A stretch of 22,006 nucleotides of DNA from a virus: positions 1 through 22,006 of the IMG/VR virus record IMGVR_UViG_3300020109_000147; one strand, written 5' to 3'. Positions 3,487 to 15,903 of this stretch are shown here, in pieces (the first letter of the stretch is position 1; each line of letters starts with the position of its first letter). The notes beneath the pieces were generated by a model. It searched no databases, was not told where the DNA came from, and saw only the letters and a list, made by a program, of their open reading frames with translations. The position numbers and the translations under genes were made by a program.

Positions 3487-3519
3487 TCGGGTCTGCGCTG
3501 ACAGCTTAGGCTGCTCGGA

Positions 3520-3553
3520 GGCCCGGCGTTCACCAGAGCGCCGGGCCTTCTTT
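3520..3553 (+). terminator. Rho-independent terminator
   Basis: A perfect 9-bp stem, GGCCCGGCG (3520-3528) and CGCCGGGCC (3539-3547), with a 10-nt loop is followed directly by TTCTTT (3548-3553). It lies 34 bases after a stop codon and separates the replication-protein operon from the modification cassette. Only 14 bases separate it from the next start codon, so some read-through or an unseen promoter must feed the downstream genes. Confidence 0.9.
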
Positions 3554-3567
3554 ATGGGAGAAGCCCC

Positions 3568-4464
3568 TTGATCAATAACAATCTGTACGAGATCTTCGTC
3601 GCCTATCTTCTGGAGCGCGACGCGATCTATCGCCGCAGGGCGGAGGGAGAACCCGGACCCTGGACTACTGACCCTATCCTGGCGAAGTACAAATTCACGA
3701 ACGTGCTCCGGAGCAGAGATCGTACGTCGCGCTGGCTGATCGAGAACTGGTACCAGCCTCACTGGGATGACCACCTCGAGGTCATCGCCCTGAACTGCGG
3801 CATCGCTCGGTACTTCGGGCGCATCGAGTTCCTGGAGGACCTCGGCTGGCAGAACAACTGGGATCCCACCTACGTTCTGGAGACCGCTCGCCGCCGCTTC
3901 CGTGAGAAGAAGCCCGTCTTCACCGGCGCGTACATCATCACCAATCAGGGGATGACGGATCCCAAGGAGGAGGTCGTCGTCAACCACTTCCTCTCCCCGT
4001 ACCGGAACGCGCTGGGGCGTCTCGTGGAGATCGCCACCACGCAGCACTCGTGGGAGTCCGTCGCGCGAGCGATGAAGGGTATGCCGGGCATGGGTCCGTT
4101 CATGACCAAGGAGATCCTGCTGGACTGGCAGTACACGCCTCTCCTCAAGTTCGCCAGCGATCGGCTGACGTGGACTCCGGCCGGACCGGGTGCCATCCGC
4201 GGCCTAAACCGGCTGCACGAGCGTCCTCTACAGCGAGGCATGACTCAGGAGCAGGCGCTCCGCGAGATGAAGGATCTGCTGGCTCGCCTGGCGAACGATC
4301 CCGCGATCATGAACAGCCGCTTCCCGACTCCCGGCGTGGAGTTCGGGGTGACCGACGTTCAGTTCTGCCTGTGCGAGCTGGACAAGTATCTCCGGGTGCG
4401 TAACCTGGAGGGGCGTCCGCGCTCCACCTTCAAGCCGAGCAGGCTGGAGGCGATCCGTGGCTGA
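3568..4464 (+). CDS. aGPT-PPlase / 5-hmdU DNA kinase helical-domain family protein (DNA base hypermodification)
   Basis: The start is a TTG at 3568, placed by GGGAG at 3556-3560 with 7-nt spacing. The 298-aa protein carries the family signature near the N-terminus: ERDAIYRRRAEGEPGPWT then DPILAKYKFTNVLRSRDR (about residues 17-53). Downstream are FTGAYIITNQG, GMPGMGPFMTKEIL and the glycosylase-like GPGAIRGLNRLHERPL motif. Aravind and colleagues described these all-helical proteins as alpha-glutamyl/putrescinyl-thymine pyrophosphorylases. Later work on phages such as ViI and M6 linked the group to 5-hydroxymethyluracil kinases and amino-acid:DNA transferases that decorate thymine in DNA. No P-loop kinase domain is fused here, so it is a stand-alone helical protein. 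It heads a cluster with a TAGT glycosyltransferase and a thymidylate-synthase-family enzyme, supporting a modification role. The exact clade and reaction cannot be set by eye. Confidence 0.82.
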   Translation: MINNNLYEIFVAYLLERDAIYRRRAEGEPGPWTTDPILAKYKFTNVLRSRDRTSRWLIENWYQPHWDDHLEVIALNCGIARYFGRIEFLEDLGWQNNWDPTYVLETARRRFREKKPVFTGAYIITNQGMTDPKEEVVVNHFLSPYRNALGRLVEIATTQHSWESVARAMKGMPGMGPFMTKEILLDWQYTPLLKFASDRLTWTPAGPGAIRGLNRLHERPLQRGMTQEQALREMKDLLARLANDPAIMNSRFPTPGVEFGVTDVQFCLCELDKYLRVRNLEGRPRSTFKPSRLEAIRG

Positions 4465-4657
4465 GTCTCCCTTTCCCGAATACCTGAGCGCCAAGCTGGA
4501 CGTGCGGATCCGGTTGGCCGACGGTCGCATCATGCAGGGCGAGCTGGTCATGGACAGTCTGGTCTTTCACCCAGACGAGGAGCAGGCGAAGAAGCTGGTG
4601 GAGGATCTGATCGAGACAACCAAGCGGAACTGGACTCTGGAGGTGAGAAATGGCTGA
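4457..4657 (+). CDS. Small hypothetical protein in the modification cassette (66 aa)
   Basis: The GTG at 4457 overlaps the end of the preceding gene by 8 bases, and the TGA overlaps the next ATG by 8, so it is embedded in a translationally coupled run. The product starts with a strand-rich segment (LDVRIRLADGRIMQGELVMDS) and ends in a helix (EEQAKKLVEDLIETTK). That resembles a small beta-barrel plus helix, but I recognise no family. Its conserved position between two modification or nucleotide genes is the only functional hint. Confidence 0.72.
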   Translation: MAESPFPEYLSAKLDVRIRLADGRIMQGELVMDSLVFHPDEEQAKKLVEDLIETTKRNWTLEVRNG

Positions 4658-4934
4658 CGAACGCTTCTTCCAGGATGGCCTGGAAAATATCATGAAGCAC
4701 ACCGGCGAGGAATGCACTGAACTTGCCGGTGCCATCTTCAAGACTCAGCGATGGGGCATGGTCTCCTACGATCCGACTATCCCTCCTGAGCAGCGCATCA
4801 CCAACGCTCAGTGGATCCGTCGCGAGATAGCTGACCTGCGCCGCCAGTGTGATCATCTCGAGGAGGCTATGATCATGGAGGGCTATCTTCGCGAGGATGG
4901 CAGCGAGATACCGTACGAGGAGATCTACCCGTGA
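4650..4934 (+). CDS. MazG-like nucleotide pyrophosphohydrolase domain protein (94 aa)
   Basis: The 94-residue helical protein shows the metal-binding pattern of all-alpha NTP pyrophosphohydrolases: E20-E21-x-x-E24 in HTGEECTELAGAIFKTQRWG, and E59-x-x-D62 in RREIADLRRQCDHLEEAM. These enzymes cut NTPs or dNTPs to the monophosphate plus pyrophosphate. Phage versions are used to shape nucleotide pools or lower ppGpp. The ATG at 4650 overlaps the preceding stop, and its own TGA overlaps the next GTG (GTGA). Sitting inside the modification cassette, it could remove an unmodified dNTP (inference). It is shorter than full MazG, as usual for phage homologues. Confidence 0.7.
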   Translation: MADERFFQDGLENIMKHTGEECTELAGAIFKTQRWGMVSYDPTIPPEQRITNAQWIRREIADLRRQCDHLEEAMIMEGYLREDGSEIPYEEIYP

Positions 4935-5173
4935 GGATACAGATAGGAACCAGCCCGCTGGACATCCGTCTTTTCGACGACGAAGGCAACGAGATCAAGG
5001 GTCTCAAGATCAGCCGACTCTCTATTGAAATGGAGGGCGGGGCTATCCCTCGCGCAGAGCTTCGCCTGGAGCTCTGGGATAAGGCGGATCTGGTCGTTGC
5101 CGACTTCGACCTGAGAGCAGCAGCCGACCTCGCGATTAGCGATGCCGTGCGGTATGATGGAGGTGATAAGTGA
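4931..5173 (+). CDS. Small hypothetical protein in the modification cassette (80 aa)
   Basis: The GTG at 4931 overlaps the upstream TGA, and the TGA at 5171 overlaps the next GTG at 5170, both with the GTGA arrangement typical of coupled phage genes. The first half is strand-rich (IGTSPLDIRLFDDEGNEIKG) and continues with SIEMEGGAIPRAELRLELWD, suggesting a small beta-sandwich or barrel. No motif identifies it. It lies directly upstream of the TAGT glycosyltransferase. Confidence 0.7.
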   Translation: MRIQIGTSPLDIRLFDDEGNEIKGLKISRLSIEMEGGAIPRAELRLELWDKADLVVADFDLRAAADLAISDAVRYDGGDK

Positions 5174-6024
5174 AGATTTTCATTCCGACGCGGGATCGCG
5201 TCCGCGCTCAGTACACCTGGGCGAACCTCACCCCGGAACTGCAACGGTACACTAGCCTAGTGGCACCGGCGGAGGAGGTCGAGGCCCATCGAGAGGCCGG
5301 TAGGAACGTCATCGCCCGCCCGCCCGTGCGGCTGGCCGCTGTGCGCCAGTGGCTTGTCGACGAGGCTGTAAACAGCGGGAACGGGCACGAGCCGATCATC
5401 ATGCTCGACGACGATCTGGCCTTCTTCGTGCGAGCCGATCCCAGCCGACACAATCTGCGACCCGCACTGGAGCGCAGTGAGATCGAGCTGGACCTCGTGT
5501 TCCAGAGGCTCTACTGTCTGGTCGCGGGCGGCGCGGCCGAGGGTCAGCAGCCGGAGATCGCCAAGCCGGTAGTCCACGCAGGTCTCAGCCCTCGTCAGGG
5601 GAACAACTGGAGCTTCCCGAACACGCTTGAGTACAACACGAGAATGAACGCGGTGCATTGCGTTCTGCCCGACGCTCTGCACCACTACGGCATCCGCTAC
5701 GACGATGTCGACATGATGGAGGACTACCATGTCACGCTCAGCCTTTTCGAGAAAGGCGAGGACAATGCTGCGATCTGCGACGCTGCCTGGGATCAGGTCA
5801 AGGGTTCAGGCGCCCCCGGAGGTTTCAGTCACTACCGAACAAATGACCGACAGGCTGCGGCTGCGGAGCGGCTGGCAGCTCTCCACCCGGAGTCAGTGAA
5901 GGTCGTCAAGAAGACGCCTAAGACCGGCGCTGGCGGCTTTGCCGGCGAGCGCACGGACGTTAGGGTGCAATGGAAGCAGGCTCGCAAGCGCGGTGCCGAG
6001 GCGACCTTCGTCAGAAAGGACTAG
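5170..6024 (+). CDS. TET-associated glycosyltransferase (TAGT)-family DNA base glycosyltransferase
   Basis: The 284-aa protein matches the TAGT pattern along its length: an N-terminal Rossmann start MKIFIPTRDRVRAQYTWANL, then RLAAVRQWL, the nucleotide-sugar/metal motif IIMLDDDLAFFV (acidic triad D80-D82), VHAGLSPRQGNN (135-146), an NTRMN segment, the acidic MEDYHVTLSLFEKG (183-196), GSGAPGGFSHYRT (212-224), and a basic end RTDVRVQWKQARKR. TAGT proteins are phage GT-A-type glycosyltransferases predicted, and in some cases shown, to add sugars to 5-hydroxymethylpyrimidines in DNA, protecting it from nucleases. The GTG start is set by overlap with the previous stop. It ends in TAG. No TET oxygenase is present in the window, so the acceptor base is probably produced by another route or elsewhere in the genome. 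Confidence 0.85.
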   Translation: MKIFIPTRDRVRAQYTWANLTPELQRYTSLVAPAEEVEAHREAGRNVIARPPVRLAAVRQWLVDEAVNSGNGHEPIIMLDDDLAFFVRADPSRHNLRPALERSEIELDLVFQRLYCLVAGGAAEGQQPEIAKPVVHAGLSPRQGNNWSFPNTLEYNTRMNAVHCVLPDALHHYGIRYDDVDMMEDYHVTLSLFEKGEDNAAICDAAWDQVKGSGAPGGFSHYRTNDRQAAAAERLAALHPESVKVVKKTPKTGAGGFAGERTDVRVQWKQARKRGAEATFVRKD

Positions 6025-6026
6025 AG

Positions 6027-6299
6027 ATGGAATTAGTTCGTCGCGCCACTACCATCAAGGGCATCAAGCTGCTGGACAGCGAGAAGGTCTCCGAAGAGGA
6101 GTGGGAGAAGCACGTCCAGGAGCTGCACGAGTTCTTTGGCCCGATACGATGGACCGGCGACGACTGCGGCGTGCAGATAGAGGACGTGGGAGACGCAGAG
6201 CCGGGCGAGTATGTCGTCGTGGAGACGTGGCCCAACGGTGACGAGGAAGTCGCCATCATCGAAGAGGAAGAGTTCCTCTCAGTCTACGAGGTAGCATAA
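6027..6299 (+). CDS. Small acidic hypothetical protein (90 aa)
   Basis: I take the ATG at 6027, two bases after the TAG of the glycosyltransferase and 6 bases past AAAGGA (6016-6021); a longer in-frame version would read through the upstream gene. The product is acidic. It has a helical first half containing SEEEWEKHVQELHEFFG, then a strand-rich second half with GEYVVVETWPNGDEEVAII and an end of EEEEFLSVYEVA. No family is recognised. Its stop (6297-6299) is one base from the next ATG. Confidence 0.72.
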   Translation: MELVRRATTIKGIKLLDSEKVSEEEWEKHVQELHEFFGPIRWTGDDCGVQIEDVGDAEPGEYVVVETWPNGDEEVAIIEEEEFLSVYEVA

Positions 6300-6300
6300 G

Positions 6301-7344
6301 ATGGAAATAAGGTACGAGCATCCCGACGAGGGGTTGCAGAAGACCCTCCGGGCGCTGAAGGAGTTAGGCGTGCGGGAGGAGTCCAGGAACGGTCCGGTGA
6401 TCCGGTTTCAGGAGCCGGTCATGCTGATCAACGTCGACCCCACCAACCGGGTCTCGCAGGCCAGTCCCCGAGACGCCAATCCGTTCTTCCACTTCATGGA
6501 GGCCCTGTGGATGCTGGGCGGCATGAACGAGGTCGCGCCGATGGCCTTCTACAACGGAGGGATCGGCCAGTACTCGGACGACGGCACCACCCTGCGCGGG
6601 ACGGCCTACGGCCACAAGTGGCGCAGTCACTTCGGCTACGATCAGCTGGAGCTGGCCGTCAAGCGCCTGCGAGACAACCCGCAGGATCGCCGAGTCGTGA
6701 TGACGATGTGGGATCCCAGAGGCGAGTGGCGCGACCCCGACTCCAAGGATCTGTCCTGCAATCTCCAGGTGATCTTCGGGACTCGCACCGTGAACGGTGT
6801 GACCCACCTGGACATGGAGGTGACCAACCGCTCCAACGACATCGTGTACGGGTGTCTCGGCAGCAACGTCTTTCACTTCAGCTACCTCCTGGAGTACATG
6901 GCTTTCCGCACCGGCTACGAGGTCGGTCGGTACTATCAGGTTGCCTTCAACCTGCACGGGTACGTTGATAACCCCGCCTTCGCCAAGGCGTACGAGTCGG
7001 CCAACCGCAGGGAGGACGATCACCTCTGGGAGCACTGGACGAAGGTAGGCCCTCCCCGCCAGCTTCTTCGTCAGATGGGGATCCAAGGATTCGCGGGAGA
7101 GATCGCCGACTTCGTTCGCACCGGACGCACCGAGGACGACTATCTCAAGGCCGTCGGCGTGCCTCTCGTGGAGGCCTATCGCATCTTCAAGCTGAAGTCG
7201 CTGGGCATCGTGACTGACGCCGAGAAGCGCATCGAGTTCGCGAAGGAGGTTGCCTCTCAGTGCGCCGACTATTCTCTCGCCGTCGCCGCCGTGCGCTGGC
7301 TGGAGCGCCGCAAACCTCAGAGGGACAGGGACACCGCGCTGTGA
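6301..7344 (+). CDS. Thymidylate synthase / deoxynucleotide hydroxymethylase family enzyme (347 aa)
   Basis: The fold signature of thymidylate synthase is present: NPFFHFMEALWMLGG (E67, W70), RGTAYGHKWR, the catalytic cysteine in DLSCNLQVIF (C153), RSND at 177-180, the substrate-reading Asn in GCLGSNVF (N189), and NLHGY (H219, Y221). The family transfers a one-carbon unit from methylene-tetrahydrofolate to C5 of dUMP or dCMP, giving dTMP or a hydroxymethyl nucleotide. The retained Asn at the position equal to E. coli N177 favours a uracil substrate; T4 dCMP hydroxymethylase has Asp there. The residue after the catalytic Cys is Asn, where ordinary synthases have His. Next to TAGT and aGPT-PPlase genes, a dUMP hydroxymethylase is an attractive but unproven reading. 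Confidence 0.88.
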   Translation: MEIRYEHPDEGLQKTLRALKELGVREESRNGPVIRFQEPVMLINVDPTNRVSQASPRDANPFFHFMEALWMLGGMNEVAPMAFYNGGIGQYSDDGTTLRGTAYGHKWRSHFGYDQLELAVKRLRDNPQDRRVVMTMWDPRGEWRDPDSKDLSCNLQVIFGTRTVNGVTHLDMEVTNRSNDIVYGCLGSNVFHFSYLLEYMAFRTGYEVGRYYQVAFNLHGYVDNPAFAKAYESANRREDDHLWEHWTKVGPPRQLLRQMGIQGFAGEIADFVRTGRTEDDYLKAVGVPLVEAYRIFKLKSLGIVTDAEKRIEFAKEVASQCADYSLAVAAVRWLERRKPQRDRDTAL

Positions 7345-7931
7345 AAGACTTCTACCAGACTTGGCGCTCCGGCAAGGTGAACCGGATGCACACCATGCCT
7401 CAGCTCCTTCGGGAGAATACCGCCGAGCACACCTTCGGCATCCACCTACTCACGGCTCGCTTCTACCCAGAGGCGCGCGCTGAGTTCTACCTCGCCGTCA
7501 CTCTCCACGACACCGGGGAGCTCGCTACCGGCGACATTCCGGCGCACGTGAAGAAGGCTGATCCCACGCTGGAGTTCATTCTCTACAGCAAGGAGTCGGC
7601 CTTCCTGGAGGAGTGCGGCCTGAAGATGCCGGATCTAACGCTGAACGAATCTCTCCTGCTGACGGTATTCGACAAGCTGGAGTTCTGCGTGTCCTGCGTT
7701 CACGAGATGCGGCTGGGGAACCTGAACGCCGCGCGCTACTTCAAGCGAAGTCTTCAGTACGCGCGGGACGCGTTCCACCAGATCGAAGTTCCCGGACCGT
7801 CTCGAGAGGACGACCAACCCTCTATCAGCCCCGAGTATCTTGCGGCGGAGCGCGCCATCAACGAGATCGACGGTCTGAAGATCGCCTACCTCTCGCACGT
7901 CAGGGAGCACGAATATGACCTCGGCCGCTAA
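7341..7931 (+). CDS. HD-domain 5'-deoxynucleotidase (YfbR-like)
   Basis: The GTG at 7341 overlaps the preceding TGA (GTGA) and gives a 196-aa product; an upstream in-frame start would lie inside the synthase gene. The HD metal ligands are visible as H30 in ENTAEHTFG, H56-D57 in AVTLHDTGELATGDIP, and D111 in VFDKLEF. The block from LLRENTAEH to GDIPAHVKKADP matches the YfbR-type deoxyribonucleoside 5'-monophosphatase pattern. Such enzymes dephosphorylate dNMPs and can deplete a chosen nucleotide. Here it could remove dTMP or another monophosphate competing with a modified base (inference). Its end overlaps the next gene by 17 bases. Confidence 0.85.
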   Translation: MKDFYQTWRSGKVNRMHTMPQLLRENTAEHTFGIHLLTARFYPEARAEFYLAVTLHDTGELATGDIPAHVKKADPTLEFILYSKESAFLEECGLKMPDLTLNESLLLTVFDKLEFCVSCVHEMRLGNLNAARYFKRSLQYARDAFHQIEVPGPSREDDQPSISPEYLAAERAINEIDGLKIAYLSHVREHEYDLGR

Positions 7932-8352
7932 CCAGATCCAGCACGGCGGGGATCACTACGCCGCCGTCGGACTCCAGCACTGGGATCTGTGCGAGATGTA
8001 CGGCATCGGCTATCTGGAGTCCGCCGCCACCAAGTATCTCTACCGATGGCGGAACAAGAACGGTCTGGAGGACTTGATGAAAGCCCTCCACTACACCCAG
8101 AAGCTGATCGAGCTGGCTCGTGACGGCTGGGTGGTTCAGCGACCGTGGGGAAAACGCCGCGTGTATCGTCTCCCGAGAGGCAGCGTGCCGCGTGCCGTCC
8201 TGCGAGACTGGTACGCCGAGAACAAGGTACCCATGGAGGAAGCCACCGCCTGCACTCACCTGTTCAACTGGAAGGACCATCACGACCTCCGCCGGGCCGA
8301 GAACGTCATCCTGGCCATCATCATGCAGAACTTTCCCGGGACTCAAATTTGA
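7915..8352 (+). CDS. DUF3310 protein, T7 gp1.7-like putative nucleotide kinase (145 aa)
   Basis: The DUF3310 signature is at residues 8-68: IQHGGDHYAAVGLQHWDL, then GYLESAATKYLYRWRNKNG, then LEDLMKALHYTQKLIE. T7 gp1.7 carries this domain and was reported to phosphorylate dGMP and dTMP without a classical Walker motif, and no Walker motif is present here either. The C-terminal half has a basic stretch (GKRRVYRLPRGSVPR) and is less familiar. The ATG at 7915 overlaps the HD gene. It closes the modification and nucleotide cassette before the promoter region at 8366. Confidence 0.82.
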   Translation: MTSAANQIQHGGDHYAAVGLQHWDLCEMYGIGYLESAATKYLYRWRNKNGLEDLMKALHYTQKLIELARDGWVVQRPWGKRRVYRLPRGSVPRAVLRDWYAENKVPMEEATACTHLFNWKDHHDLRRAENVILAIIMQNFPGTQI

Positions 8353-8365
8353 GCCATCTGATGGC

Positions 8366-8394
8366 TTGTCAACGGAGCGGGGTCGACCTACTGT
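8366..8394 (+). promoter_or_regulatory. Sigma70-like promoter upstream of the DNA polymerase gene
   Basis: TTGTCA (8366-8371), a 17-bp spacer and TACTGT (8389-8394) form a good sigma70-type promoter. It lies in the 96-bp gap between the cassette and the polymerase gene. The same CTTGTCAA context and exact spacing recur at 16069. Its spacer and -10 are covered by the inverted repeat at 8377-8403. Confidence 0.65.
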
Positions 8395-8403
8395 CGACCC
8401 CGC
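8377..8403. repeat. Perfect 11-bp inverted repeat overlapping the polymerase promoter
   Basis: GCGGGGTCGAC (8377-8387) and GTCGACCCCGC (8393-8403) are exact reverse complements separated by five bases. The element covers the second half of the promoter spacer, the -10 box and the likely start point. No T-run follows, so it is a weak candidate for a simple terminator. Possible readings are a repressor operator, or a hairpin at the 5' end of the polymerase mRNA. Confidence 0.8.
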
Positions 8404-8448: not shown

Positions 8449-10497
8449 GTGACGGATCTGTTCAATCAGGCGAACATTAGCGCCGAGTACCAGTGTCCCA
8501 CGATGGACACCTTCAAGTTCCCAAGCCTCTGCGGCCCCATCACCATCGACACCGAGACCCACGATCCGCTGCTGACCGAGCGCGGAGCGGGCTGGGCGTA
8601 CGATCGATACGGGCAGAACGGCGGCAAGGTTCTGGGCTACGCAGTTCACGCCGACAACTTCCACGAGTATCTGCCCGTCGGCCACGTCGAGGGCAACATG
8701 GATCCGGCCCGCATAAAGTCGTGGCTCTCGCACGAGATCAACAAGGATCCCTCCCAGCCGAAGATCTTCGCGAACATCATGTACGACGAGGGCTGGATGG
8801 AGGCCGAGGGCGTCAAGATGACGGAGGAGCAGGATCGTCACGACGTGATGTACCAGGCTCCCCTTCTGGACGAGAACCGCTTCAACTACGGGCTGGACGC
8901 TCTCGGCAAGGACTTCCTGAACGTCGGCAAGGACGAGCGTCTCCTGAAGGAGGCCGCGGACAGGCTGGGCGTCAAGAACTCCAAGAAGGACAACGTCAAG
9001 AAGCACCTGATGCGGATCCACCCGAACATCGTCGGGGTCTACGCGAATCAGGACACCTTCGTCACCCGAAGCCTCTGGGATCACTTCACGCCGCTCATGG
9101 TGGAGCAGAATCTGCTGGAGGTCTACGCGCTGGAGATGGACCTCGTCCCGATGCACATCGCCATGCGAATGCGAGGCGTGCGCGTGAACGTCGAGGAGGC
9201 CGAGCGACGCCAGCGTCTGCTGACTACTCGCGAGAAGGAGGCCCGGATCTTCATCAAGGAGACCACGGGCATCGAGCTGGGAAGCTGGGATACGCCCGCT
9301 GAGATCGCCAAGATCTTCGACAAGCTGGAGATCAAGTACAATCTCACCGAGAAGTCAAAGCAACCGTCGATCACCGCGGGTTGGCTCAAGTCCCTCAATC
9401 ACCCAATCGCCGACGCAATCCTCGCCGGGCGCAAGGCCGCGAATATCCGGTCCACCTTCATTGAGAACTCGCTCCTCAATCTTCAGCAGCGGGGGCGAGT
9501 CTACCCCAACTTCAATCAGCTCCGCAAGAACAGCGACGACGGCTCGGCCGGTGTGCTCGGCAAGGAGCTCAAGTCCACCTCCAAGGGCACCGTCTCGGGT
9601 CGCTACTCCAGCTCCAACCCGAACTTCCAGCAGATGCCCTCGCCCGAGCGCGACTACGACACCGGCATGATGATCCGCGAGCTCTTCCTTCCGGAGGAGG
9701 GCGACATGTGGCACGGGCTGGACTACTCCTCGCAGGAGCCTCGCGGCATCGTTCACTTCGCGGAGGTGACCAACTGCCGGGGCGCGGCTAAGATGGCCGA
9801 CAAGTTCCGAGACGATCCGGACACCGACATCCACATGGAGAACGGCCTCCTGATCATCGCCAAGAAGCCGGACTACTACGGCGGCGACCCGAAGAAGGCC
9901 CGCAAGCCGACGAAGACCATCGGCCTCGGCATCGCCTACGGCATGGGCGGCGGCAAGCTCGCCCTTCAACTGGGACTCCCGTACACCTTCGCCAAGTTCA
10001 TGAAGGGGCTGGAGGAGTTCGAGTATATGAAGGCCGGTCCCGAGGCCCAGGAGATCATGAACGCCTTTGACGACGCCGCGCCCTATATCCGCGAGCTGGC
10101 GTACAAGTGCCAGAACGCCGTCAAGAAGAAGGGCTACATCGTCACGCCGATCGGTCGCCGCTTCCGCTTCCCGAAGGATGACAGCGGTCGCTATATGTTC
10201 CTGAACAAGGCGCTGAACCGACTGATCCAGGGCACCAGCGCCGACATGACCAAGCTGGCGATGCGGAACCTCTGGCGAGCGGGCATCCTTCCGCTGGGAA
10301 CCGTTCACGACGAGATCGACCTCAGCGAGTCCGATCCCAAGCGCGTGGCCCTCGCAAAGGAGATCATGGAGACCGCCCTTCCCATGACGATCCCGATCCG
10401 CGTTGACGTGGGTACGGGTAAGAATTGGGGAGACGCCAGCGTGCCCGATCTGGGCGGTGAGAATTACGTTAAGTTCATGGAAAGGATGGTAGCATGA
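8449..10497 (+). CDS. polA: Family A DNA polymerase with 3'-5' exonuclease domain
   Basis: The GTG at 8449 follows GGGAG (8438-8442) and gives 682 aa. A DnaQ-type proofreading domain comes first: ITIDTETHD with D34 and E36, then YANQDTF. Polymerase motif A is LDYSSQEPR (D425, E430). Motif B is RKPTKTIGLGIAYG with R485, K489, L493 and Y497, in the exact spacing of E. coli R754, K758, F762 and Y766. Motif C is VHDEID (H620, D621, E622). There is no 5'-3' exonuclease domain; that activity is encoded two genes downstream. Leu at the 762-equivalent is a variant discussed for viral polymerases with slower, more faithful synthesis and often temperate phages. The gene overlaps dUTPase by four bases. 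Confidence 0.97.
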   Translation: MTDLFNQANISAEYQCPTMDTFKFPSLCGPITIDTETHDPLLTERGAGWAYDRYGQNGGKVLGYAVHADNFHEYLPVGHVEGNMDPARIKSWLSHEINKDPSQPKIFANIMYDEGWMEAEGVKMTEEQDRHDVMYQAPLLDENRFNYGLDALGKDFLNVGKDERLLKEAADRLGVKNSKKDNVKKHLMRIHPNIVGVYANQDTFVTRSLWDHFTPLMVEQNLLEVYALEMDLVPMHIAMRMRGVRVNVEEAERRQRLLTTREKEARIFIKETTGIELGSWDTPAEIAKIFDKLEIKYNLTEKSKQPSITAGWLKSLNHPIADAILAGRKAANIRSTFIENSLLNLQQRGRVYPNFNQLRKNSDDGSAGVLGKELKSTSKGTVSGRYSSSNPNFQQMPSPERDYDTGMMIRELFLPEEGDMWHGLDYSSQEPRGIVHFAEVTNCRGAAKMADKFRDDPDTDIHMENGLLIIAKKPDYYGGDPKKARKPTKTIGLGIAYGMGGGKLALQLGLPYTFAKFMKGLEEFEYMKAGPEAQEIMNAFDDAAPYIRELAYKCQNAVKKKGYIVTPIGRRFRFPKDDSGRYMFLNKALNRLIQGTSADMTKLAMRNLWRAGILPLGTVHDEIDLSESDPKRVALAKEIMETALPMTIPIRVDVGTGKNWGDASVPDLGGENYVKFMERMVA

Positions 10498-10988
10498 CTG
10501 AGACTGCAAAGCGAGTACGAGTTAAGATCGCCAACGTGATGAAGCTCCCGCACGACGCCCCCGACGAGACGCTGGGCGTCAAGTTCCCGACCTACGGATC
10601 GGACGGCGCGGCCGGGATGGACCTCTACGCCGCCGAGAACGTAACGTTCCGCAAGGGCGAGACGAAGACTGTCGGTCTTGGCTTCGCCACCGAGCTCCCC
10701 GACGACGTCCACGCCCGCATTGAGGCCCGCAGCTCTCTCGCGCTGAAGAACCTCGTGGTCCTCACCGGCGTGATCGACGCCGACTACCGCGGAGAGTGGA
10801 AGGTCATCCTACACTTCCTGGGTCCGTGCGAGGCGAACGGCTACGCTGAGAGCTTCACGGTTGCCAAGGGAGACCGCATAGCGCAAGCTGTGCTGCGGCC
10901 CACCATCAGAGCCGTTCTCGACCCCGTCGAGGAGCTCGGTACCACGGGCCGGGGTGCTGCTGGCTTTGGTAGCACGGGAGCGCGCTAA
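10494..10988 (+). CDS. dut: dUTP diphosphatase (trimeric dUTPase)
   Basis: All five motifs are present in order: SDGAAGMDLYA (36-46), the RSSLAL block (79-84), GVIDADYRGE (92-101), GDRIAQAVL (126-134) and the glycine-rich RGAAGFGSTG (153-162) that closes over the substrate. The enzyme hydrolyses dUTP to dUMP and pyrophosphate, limiting uracil in DNA and supplying dUMP to the thymidylate-synthase-family enzyme at 6301. Length (164 aa) is typical. The ATG overlaps the polymerase stop (ATGA), so the two are translationally coupled. Confidence 0.96.
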   Translation: MTETAKRVRVKIANVMKLPHDAPDETLGVKFPTYGSDGAAGMDLYAAENVTFRKGETKTVGLGFATELPDDVHARIEARSSLALKNLVVLTGVIDADYRGEWKVILHFLGPCEANGYAESFTVAKGDRIAQAVLRPTIRAVLDPVEELGTTGRGAAGFGSTGAR

Positions 10989-11014: not shown

Positions 11015-11863
11015 GTGCCTAGAATGCTCATAGTGGACGGCATGTCCGTCCTGAAGACCACCGCCGGAGGGGCCGCGTTCCTGACCAACGGCTTCGCCTA
11101 CAACTTCTTCACTCAGCTGACCGCGATGTACAAGAGGTTTCCGGATCTCAAGGGCACCATCGTCTGCTGGGAGGGAGGCCACGGGGGACGAACCCAGATC
11201 TACTCCGGCTACAAGGCGGACCGCAAGGGCAGCGGACCCGAGATCAAGGCTCAGCGCGATCTGGTCCAGGATCTGCTGCATCACGTCGGAGCGGACCAGG
11301 TCTACGCGCCCGGACACGAGGCCGACGACTGCGCGGCTTGGCTGGTCAACAATCTCGGCGTTCCGGCGCTGATGATGTCCAACGACAACGACTGGTTGCA
11401 GCTTGTCCGGAAGGGCGTGTCCATCTATCAGAAGTCGGACTACAATCCGCAGAAGAAGGGCGCTCGCCTGGAGATCACGCGCGAGACCTTCCAGGCGCTC
11501 ACGGGATACGCATCGCCCGAGATGCTGCTGGAGGGTAAGTGCCTGATGGGCGACGGCGTGGACGGGATCCCTGGGATCGAGGGGATCGGCCCCACCATCG
11601 CGAAGGCGTACCTGCTGGGTCAGCACGTCTCGGCCAATCGCCGCGAGAAGATTGAGGACTTCATCAACTCGCAGGAGTACAGTCGCAACAAGATGCTGAT
11701 GGACCTCATCACGCCTCGCGACCTGAATCTGGTCTGGCGACGGGGCGAGGCGTCGGAGGAGCGCGCAAGGGATTTTCTTACGAACGTAGGTGGTACAGGG
11801 TGGCCTAGCGTAATGAAGAACTTCCCGGACTGGTGGGAGCTCTACGCCGCAGCGAGGTTGTAA
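11015..11863 (+). CDS. FEN-like 5'-3' exonuclease (T7 gp6 / Pol I N-domain type)
   Basis: The GTG at 11015 follows TAAGGAG. The 282-aa protein carries the metal-binding acids of the FEN family: D8 in MLIVDGMSV, E102, D104 and D105 in GHEADDCAAW, D124 and D126 in MSNDNDWLQL, and D180 and D183 in LMGDGVDGIPG. A helix-3-turn-helix motif follows (GIPGIEGIGPTIAKAYL). It would remove RNA primers and flaps, supplying the activity missing from the polymerase. The region GGAAFLTNGFAYNF is a phage-type N-terminus. Its stop overlaps the next ATG by one base (TAATG). Confidence 0.93.
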   Translation: MPRMLIVDGMSVLKTTAGGAAFLTNGFAYNFFTQLTAMYKRFPDLKGTIVCWEGGHGGRTQIYSGYKADRKGSGPEIKAQRDLVQDLLHHVGADQVYAPGHEADDCAAWLVNNLGVPALMMSNDNDWLQLVRKGVSIYQKSDYNPQKKGARLEITRETFQALTGYASPEMLLEGKCLMGDGVDGIPGIEGIGPTIAKAYLLGQHVSANRREKIEDFINSQEYSRNKMLMDLITPRDLNLVWRRGEASEERARDFLTNVGGTGWPSVMKNFPDWWELYAAARL

Positions 11864-12360
11864 TGCAGACGTTCCTTCCGTATCCCGACATGATGAAGTC
11901 CCTACGCAGCCTGGACCGGCTGCGTCTCGGGAAGCAGCGCGTAGAGTCCAAGCAGCTTCTCAAGTCCATCATTCGCGACGATCCGGAACAGGCACGTCAC
12001 CTTCGCGAGGACGCTGTTCGCCTTCTCAACGACCAGCAGAAGGGCAGCATCCTGGAGCTCGTCACGCCCAACAAGGGGTGGATCAACCACCCCGCCCGGA
12101 CGCAATGGGGGCAGAACGTAGGCGCGCTGGCCGTCTATCACGACATGAGTCTGCTCGTGTGGAAGGCGCGCGGCTACCAGAACAACATGCCCTTCCTCTC
12201 CAGTCGGGATCATCACAAGCTCCCCGACTGGTGGGGCGACGAGCGTTTTCACTCCTCGCATCGCAGCAACCTGCTGCGCAAGGATCCCCTCTGGTACGGA
12301 CAGTTCGGCTGGACCGACGACCCTGCCGCAGAATATTGGTGGCCCTCTCGCGAGGGCTGA
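11863..12360 (+). CDS. Pyrimidine-dimer DNA glycosylase-like protein (MSMEG_6728-type family)
   Basis: The start is the ATG at 11863, overlapping the upstream TAA by one base. The 165-aa protein matches the family pattern: MQTFLPYPDMMKSLRSLDRLR, LGKQRVESKQLL, GWINHPARTQWG, LPDWWGDERFHSSHRSNLL and RKDPLWYGQFGWT. This group is annotated as similar to pyrimidine-dimer DNA glycosylases (T4 endonuclease V relatives), but the activity is largely untested. A repair role, or recognition of a modified base, would fit its neighbours. The fold assignment rests on recalled family motifs only. Confidence 0.82.
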   Translation: MQTFLPYPDMMKSLRSLDRLRLGKQRVESKQLLKSIIRDDPEQARHLREDAVRLLNDQQKGSILELVTPNKGWINHPARTQWGQNVGALAVYHDMSLLVWKARGYQNNMPFLSSRDHHKLPDWWGDERFHSSHRSNLLRKDPLWYGQFGWTDDPAAEYWWPSREG

Positions 12361-15465: not shown

Positions 15466-15540
15466 GACCCCGTCGGCATAATTGGAGTAATGCCTCCGTC
15501 TCTAAAACGGAATATGTCGGTTCGAGCCCGACCGGGGCCG
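15466..15540 (+). tRNA. Candidate amber-suppressor tRNA, anticodon CUA (15502-15504)
   Basis: A 75-nt cloverleaf can be drawn. The acceptor is GACCCCG (15466-15472) with CGGGGCC (15533-15539), with one A-C mismatch at the second pair. The D arm is GGCAT/ATGCC around a loop holding the conserved GG. The anticodon stem TCCGT/ACGGA (15495-15499, 15507-15511) closes the 7-nt loop CTCTAAA, with T at position 33 and CTA at 34-36. The T arm is GTCGG-TTCGAGC-CCGAC with the invariant TTCGA. The discriminator is G, and CCA is not encoded. CUA reads the amber codon UAG. Oddities are a 5-bp D stem without base 26, and a competing outer stem TGCGG (15460-15464) with CCGCA (15538-15542). The opposite strand translates to the nonsense peptides typical of tRNA shadows. 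Confidence 0.58.
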
Positions 15541-15903
15541 CAGGATTAAAAAAAGAGTTTGCGCGGTGAAGCGGTATGCCCCACACAGGGGCTGCAACCG
15601 GGCGGGGCATTCTGGTGCAGTCATGCAAGCCTCCACCCACTCCTTCTCGGTTGTCCCCGGAGGCTGGGGCTTGGTGATTCGGTTACTGGCCTCCGGGGTA
15701 GCTTCTGACCCTTTCAGGGTCGCGGATAGGGTTGATCGGTACAATCAGCCCGAAAAACAATGGGTCCTCGTCCGAGGGATAGTCGCTGGCTGGTTCGTGC
15801 CGGTCTTCGGTGGGTCCTTCTAAAGTAGATCACAGGTAGCACGAGCCTCGCTGATCTGCACGTCCCGAGGGGAAGTCCTCCGCGATCCTACAAGGCTCAG
15901 ATT
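15541..15903 (+). other. Hairpin-rich non-coding stretch between two tRNA-like genes
   Basis: I see no convincing protein gene in these 363 bases. Stable hairpins are visible: ATGCCCC (15575-15581) with GGGGCAT (15604-15610); CCCCGGAGGC (15655-15664) with GCCTCCGGGG (15689-15698); GACCC/GGGTC (15707-15721); and GGGTTGAT (15729-15736) with ATCAGCCC (15744-15751, one G-T pair). CCTC/GAGG follows near 15767. None ends in a T-run, so they are not ordinary terminators. A structured RNA, processed tRNA spacers or degenerate tRNA genes are possible. Confidence 0.5.

Follow-up and report, generated by a model that had tools for sequence, protein, structure and literature searches.

The virus record IMGVR_UViG_3300020109_000147 of IMG/VR, a linear sequence of 22,006 bases that was analyzed in its entirety (hereinafter, the window) and is a fragment of an incomplete genome, carries at 3568–8352 an operon that probably serves to replace thymine in the phage DNA, completely or in part, by glycosylated 5-hydroxymethyluracil (hmU), with the HMUDK_hel protein as the recognition half of the modifying machinery. 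According to the proposed pathway, an enzyme of the thymidylate-synthase family would turn dUMP into 5-hydroxymethyl-dUMP (hmdUMP), an HD enzyme and a dUTPase, the latter supplying dUMP, would shape the nucleotide pool, a DUF3310 protein and/or host kinases would raise hmdUMP to the triphosphate, and the neighbouring family A polymerase would incorporate the resulting hmdUTP. HMUDK_hel, which resembles DNA glycosylases, would then recognize 5-hydroxymethyldeoxyuridine (hmdU) in DNA and present the flipped base, and the TAGT glycosyltransferase would put a sugar onto the hydroxymethyl group. These enzyme activities are inferences, and so are the nature and linkage of the sugar, the degree of thymine replacement and any HMUDK_hel–TAGT complex. 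The glycosyl-hmdU so formed would resemble base J (glucosyl-hmU) of kinetoplastids, where the hydroxymethyl group of hmU in DNA likewise carries a sugar. Base J arises when thymine already present in DNA is oxidized (JBP; PMC6449724), whereas the operon is predicted to draw its hmdU from the nucleotide pool. Each of the enzyme families is already known; their combination and its logic are new.

The nine genes and the conserved five-gene core

The first-pass annotation, made from the letters of the window alone, had described this stretch as a compact nine-gene cassette for pyrimidine hypermodification. Its broad idea was strongly supported, and three of its points, namely, the naming of one protein, the size of the unit and the supposed unpredictability of the chemistry, had to be corrected. 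All nine open reading frames (ORFs) were present on the plus strand, most of them overlapping (overlaps of 4–17 bases or gaps of 1–2 bases). The profile search set beforehand as a test of the proteins at 3568 and 5170 placed both in the families expected: HMUDK_hel at 3568–4464 (PF18723, E = 4.6e-46, 158 bits, cut-off 25) and TAGT at 5170–6024 (PF20691, E = 2.4e-10, 41.1 bits, cut-off 27.5), the latter also matching PHROG 842, annotated as beta-glucosyl-HMC-alpha-glucosyltransferase (1.3e-36). The thymidylate-synthase-family gene, a predicted dUMP hydroxymethylase, was located at 6301–7344 (Pfam Thymidylat_synt 1.2e-16, PHROG 5131 1.3e-86) and was followed by a YfbR-like HD nucleotidase or dNTPase at 7341–7931 (Pfam 5.5e-9, PHROG 6047 2.5e-27; also dATP triphosphohydrolase PHROG 7076, 2e-7) and by the DUF3310 gene at 7915–8352 (PHROG 5839 2.3e-26; Pfam 1.9e-4, below the Pfam cut-off). 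The gene at 4650–4934, called MazG-like, matched weakly (Pfam MazG 0.053, PHROG 4856 1.8e-7), and three small ORFs (4457–4657, 4931–5173 and 6027–6299) indeed belonged to no Pfam or PHROG family.

Comparison of the neighbourhoods of related loci, limited to 8–10 kb per side, revealed a conserved core of five genes encoding HMUDK_hel, TAGT, the thymidylate-synthase-family enzyme, the HD enzyme and the DUF3310 protein. The MazG-like gene and the three small ORFs had no convincing relatives among approximately 190 related loci (the ORF at 6027–6299 gave one weak match, in locus L081); judging from this comparison, they are lineage-specific accessory genes outside the core, and the unit of nine was overstated. 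The core proteins were 24–71% identical across many divergent contigs of uncultivated phages from IMG/VR, with HMUDK_hel and TAGT in reverse order in some lineages; the association is therefore not one of simple recent descent. Searches of IMG/VR with HMUDK_hel and with TAGT returned largely identical contigs: TAGT was found in 8 of the 8 loci obtained with the former query, and HMUDK_hel in 15 of the 16 obtained with the latter; in the remaining one, the contig breaks off within TAGT. In close relatives, the core was usually followed by the polymerase, the dUTPase and other replication genes. Brevibacterium phage LuckyBarnes, an isolate whose host is Brevibacterium iodinum ATCC 15728 and whose genome is complete, also has HMUDK_hel, TAGT and the synthase side by side (genes 38–41). 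It resembles the window in combining HMUDK_hel, TAGT and a hydroxymethylase and differs from it in the low identity (28–29%), in having two TAGT copies and in that no HD or DUF3310 genes were found alongside. Microbacterium phage Casey had HMUDK_hel together with a weak TAGT match and lacked the kinase.

Residues 122–184, in the C-terminal part of T7 gp1.7, a nucleotide kinase, matched DUF3310 with the Pfam profile (4.5e-23), and by this analogy the DUF3310 protein may help hmdUMP phosphorylation. A DUF3310 profile built for this analysis did not reach T7 gp1.7, though that of Pfam does, and the role as an hmdUMP kinase is therefore tentative.

Synthase specificity and the available transferases

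The synthase of the window carries C146-N147, N168 and N177 (E. coli numbering), that is, Asn at positions 147 and 177, the two that discriminate best between cytosine-modifying and canonical synthases (PMC8670742). The same residue pattern was present in SPO1 gp29, a dUMP hydroxymethylase, in gp58 of Pseudomonas phage M6 and in 116 of the 116 alignable synthases from related loci; the Asp177 of the cytosine-type hydroxymethylases of T-even phages was thus found neither in the window nor in these relatives. Position 168 was occupied by Asn in the aligned hydroxymethylases and by Cys in E. coli ThyA. The window enzyme was 37–41% identical to the synthases of M6-like and related phages, and is predicted from its residues to hydroxymethylate dUMP, not dCMP.

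A cytosine pathway, in which the synthase would be a dCMP hydroxymethylase and TAGT would glycosylate 5-hydroxymethylcytosine (hmC) as in T-even phages, appears improbable. It draws on the name of TAGT, taken from cytosine systems, and on the annotation of PHROG 842. The best match of the synthase in the PDB was, moreover, a cytidine enzyme, the CMP 5-hydroxymethylase MilA (1.4e-25, compared with 4e-8 for the best thymidylate synthase), and the authors of the LuckyBarnes paper, who noted a hydroxymethylase and two glycosyltransferases, assigned the former to dCMP (PMC6588365; no DNA analysis was found in the part of its text that was searched). MilA, however, carries Asp at position 177, where the window-type synthases carry Asn; since the Asp of T4 gp42 fell one column off in the alignment, the contrast with cytosine enzymes rests on MilA and on the literature. 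The glucosyl-hmC system of T-even phages (with the TAGT of T2/T6) shares with the window the TAGT family and a hydroxymethylase of the thymidylate-synthase family, whereas the window has a uracil-type synthase with Asn at both specificity positions, as in dUMP enzymes, and HMUDK_hel, otherwise known with hmdU. T4-type alpha-glucosyltransferases (PF11440) and beta-glucosyltransferases (PF09198) were found neither in the window nor in 28 other TAGT-bearing records, the T4 positive control being matched, which leaves TAGT as the primary transferase. With regard to TET-TAGT cytosine hypermodification, TET/JBP dioxygenases (PF12851) gave no match in 29 records, in a search where no positive control matched either. 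The idea that TAGT loci without HMUDK_hel use cytosine-type synthases was also considered and rejected, Asn177 being present in all five examined.

The TAGT assignment was supported by the profile score above the cut-off, by the motifs (DxD and ED) and by the model. The DDD at positions 80–82 was invariant and the MED at 183–185 nearly so among 13 relatives, and the AlphaFold2 model (pLDDT 86) had a GT-A fold closest to GalNAc-T2 and cellulose synthase (Z = 13). TAGT, the sole known DNA-hydroxyl transferase available, is proposed to be an hmdU-DNA glycosyltransferase. The view that the chemistry could not be predicted was thus too pessimistic: with a uracil-type active site in the synthase and no transferase in the core other than a glycosyltransferase, glycosylated hmdU is the specific prediction.

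Since the record is a fragment, genes absent from the window alone prove nothing, and gene absence was judged in larger related contigs and in complete phages. Neither the 5-hmdU DNA kinase (PF18748) nor the amino acid:DNA transferase (ADDT, PF18724) was found in the window, in LuckyBarnes or in 24 large contigs of 40–92 kb, each holding HMUDK_hel and TAGT. Among the first 25 records examined, both families were present in M6 alone. Overall, PF18748 was found in M6, Ag3, SBSphiC and RHph_I72, in a search that missed one divergent kinase (L140) and that very remote forms could escape; PF18724 was found in M6, Ag3, Epa5, RHph_I72 and L140, that is, with kinase-type loci only. The absence of the usual partners, reported earlier from the window, was thus borne out, and it is not an oddity of one phage, the examined relatives with TAGT or with GT-B-type enzymes lacking them too.

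These absences bear on a further reading, according to which the operon would be a remnant or incomplete part of an M6-type pathway, with the kinase and amino-acid transferase encoded beyond the sequenced fragment, an aminated thymine as the product and TAGT acting elsewhere, for example, on the surface or on protein. The fragmentary record and the order of HMUDK_hel, the synthase, HD, DUF3310 and the family A polymerase, which is that of M6 (5-NedU), speak for it. The uracil-type hydroxymethylase is 38% and HMUDK_hel 33% identical to the M6 proteins. The window has two elements of the M6-type pathway, the predicted hydroxymethylase residue pattern and HMUDK_hel, and lacks the kinase and ADDT; M6 encodes kinase gp54, ADDT gp51, the PLP enzyme gp52 and radical SAM enzyme gp53, none of which was seen here, whereas the window has TAGT instead. 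With no kinase or ADDT in the 24 large contigs or in the complete LuckyBarnes genome, and with kinase and TAGT never together around HMUDK_hel, this reading is very improbable, even more so than the cytosine pathway.

HMUDK_hel and the exchange of its partner enzymes

We take PF18723 (HMUDK_hel), formerly named aGPT-PPlase1, to be the helical partner of the 5-hmdU DNA kinase. The name "aGPT-PPlase" used for the protein at 3568 is accordingly misleading, as this protein accompanies a kinase and is no proven pyrophosphorylase; the kinase itself is missing here. Partners were compared in 62 distinct HMUDK_hel loci (distinct by an approximate k-mer cut-off) drawn from the best 80 of 327 matches to an HMUDK_hel query made without TAGT, a sample biased to closer relatives. 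TAGT was present in 24 loci, a GT-B-type enzyme in 22 and the kinase in 11, and 5 loci had no partner of the three types; two partners at one locus were found in 0 of the 62. With TAGT-derived loci included (n = 100), the corresponding numbers were 57, 22, 14 and 7. The domain named for the kinase thus paired, in this set, more often with glycosyltransferases than with the kinase.

The GT-B-type partners (430–460 residues) formed one cluster unrelated to TAGT. Several of its members matched Glycos_transf_1 or GT-B families related to it, for the most part with scores that did not reach the cut-off (L098 exceeded it, at 8.3e-8), and no PHROG family fitted the cluster well. At L089:9111–10409 and 28 similar loci, the cluster occupied the place of TAGT between HMUDK_hel and the synthase. 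Two unrelated proteins of 361–362 residues were located in the same slot in L103 (9865–10950) and L092 (9431–10513); they had no Pfam or PHROG match and are possible further partner enzymes. A radical SAM/SPASM enzyme stood beside the GT-B-type transferase at one locus (L109:9562–10647), which suggests compound decoration.

A quick maximum-likelihood tree built from HMUDK_hel required no fewer than 12 switches of partner, 8 of them between glycosyltransferase and kinase, and well-supported branches forced at least 4 changes each for the GT-B-type enzyme and the kinase. In Bacillus phage SBSphiC, the kinase and HMUDK_hel were fused in one protein, which shows that HMUDK_hel and its partner act together; among the ORFs of the loci examined, none joined HMUDK_hel to a glycosyltransferase. 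HMUDK_hel would accordingly provide substrate recognition for transferases that can replace one another: a P-loop kinase in phages of the M6 type, the GT-A-type TAGT here and GT-B-type enzymes in others.

The AlphaFold2 model of HMUDK_hel (pLDDT 89.8) was most similar in the PDB to the 5-PmdU glycinyltransferase gp46 of PaMx11 (8z2n; Z = 11.4, 217 residues, root mean square deviation 3.7, identity 9%), followed by helix-hairpin-helix 8-oxoG DNA glycosylases (3knt, Z = 10.4; 3n0u, Z = 9.7). Gp46 acts on derivatized hmdU in DNA, and ADDT is absent from the system considered here. Sequence searches of HMUDK_hel against the PDB, both single and profile, gave no match. The protein contains a helix-hairpin-helix-like motif, MPGMGPFMTKEI, followed by the conserved D198, and in 51 HMUDK_hel sequences representing all three partner types, R17, R48, D51, K133, D198, G206–G208, C269, E270, K273 and R276 were invariant or nearly so. 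Since these residues are kept whichever partner is present, HMUDK_hel likely reads the substrate common to all of them, and the invariant residues most likely serve recognition of hmdU in DNA. We therefore propose that HMUDK_hel recognizes and flips hmdU and hands the base to the partner enzyme.

The main rival of this proposal is that HMUDK_hel is itself a catalyst, performing a separate reaction on hmdU in DNA, perhaps by making or using an activated intermediate like the PaMx11 glycinyltransferase of related fold, with TAGT acting before or after it and a compound modification as the result. The closest structure is indeed that of an enzyme transferring glycine to 5-PmdU, and nine polar residues (R17, R48, D51, K133, D198, C269, E270, K273 and R276) are fully invariant whichever partner is present. 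One fixed catalyst, however, would need to fit phosphorylation, GT-A transfer and GT-B transfer, three chemistries without relation to one another, and shared recognition explains the exchange of partners more simply; the kinase fusion and the Pfam name suggest an accessory domain, and the profile relation between HMUDK_hel and ADDT is not significant. We therefore regard catalysis by HMUDK_hel as unlikely.

Several points weigh against recognition by HMUDK_hel followed by glycosylation by TAGT. The invariant acidic and basic residues of HMUDK_hel could equally mean catalysis of its own. The fold similarity is moderate (Z = 11.4) and not significant in Foldseek (E = 0.16), and helical folds easily reach middling Z values, so the match is suggestive; as the comparison of the HMUDK_hel and ADDT profiles was not significant either (0.2% probability), base flipping is an extrapolation from these data. 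At least three records (L003, which is complete, L195 and L204) contained TAGT and a uracil-type synthase and no HMUDK_hel despite room on both sides; TAGT may therefore not always need HMUDK_hel, and these records possibly represent an HMUDK_hel-independent form. TAGT is known from T-even phages, where it adds a second sugar onto glucosyl-hmC, and not from hmdU (PMC13216743). Finally, the support is computational and the window is a fragment. The wider generalization of the preferred reading, in which HMUDK_hel is no kinase domain and instead a general hmU reader coupled to three unrelated transferases, and both glycosyltransferase forms make glycosyl-hmdU, a base-J-like modification apparently common in uncultivated phages, is held tentatively, at slightly less than even confidence.

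Neighbouring genes and meaning for phage DNA modification

The operon was said to lie between a strong terminator and a promoter. The former was recovered at 3515–3556 on the plus strand as a perfect-stem hairpin (near 3517–3550) followed by UUCUUU, which probably terminates the unit upstream (–32.5 kcal/mol, z = –4.2, with all shuffled sequences folding less well) and which is supported by folding only and was not reported by a simple consensus terminator scan; the promoter claim was left without support, since a simple consensus scan reported no sigma-70 promoter. The cassette adjoins, on the same strand, the family A DNA polymerase gene (8449–10497; Pfam DNA_pol_A 1.3e-45), which is followed by the dUTPase gene (10494–10988; Pfam dUTPase 3.4e-27). 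Between DUF3310 and the polymerase gene, a long perfect GC-rich stem-loop without a U-tract was located at 8376–8403 (plus strand), as part of a strongly folded intergenic stretch of 96 bases (–51.3 kcal/mol, z = –4.05).

Upstream, three consecutive plus-strand genes (972–2784) matched families named after gp32, gp33 and gp34 of cyanophage Pam3, and close relatives also keep the gp33- and gp34-family genes on the upstream side of the cassette. A gene of the pyrimidine-dimer DNA glycosylase family (11833–12360, plus strand; Pyr_excise 8.7e-16) was found downstream of the hypermodification operon in several relatives as well. At 15466–15541 (plus strand), ARAGORN reported a tRNA-Pyl whose anticodon is CUA, possibly a phage amber-suppressor tRNA.

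In the accessible literature, no report of glycosyl-hmdU from any phage was found, and no published proposal of hmdU glycosylation by TAGT or of partner exchange; with the key subscription papers outside this coverage, an earlier mention of glycosyltransferases beside aGPT-PPlase proteins is possible. Solitary TAGT homologues were described in 288 of 753 phages in 2026, and novel transferases were suggested (PMC13216743). The reading given here links the TAGTs of such loci to hmdU rather than to hmC, a prediction that can be examined in the isolated phage LuckyBarnes. If it is true, phages would change the decoration of their DNA yet keep one recognition module, which would be relevant to how they evade restriction and to new enzymes with which hmU in DNA could be labelled.

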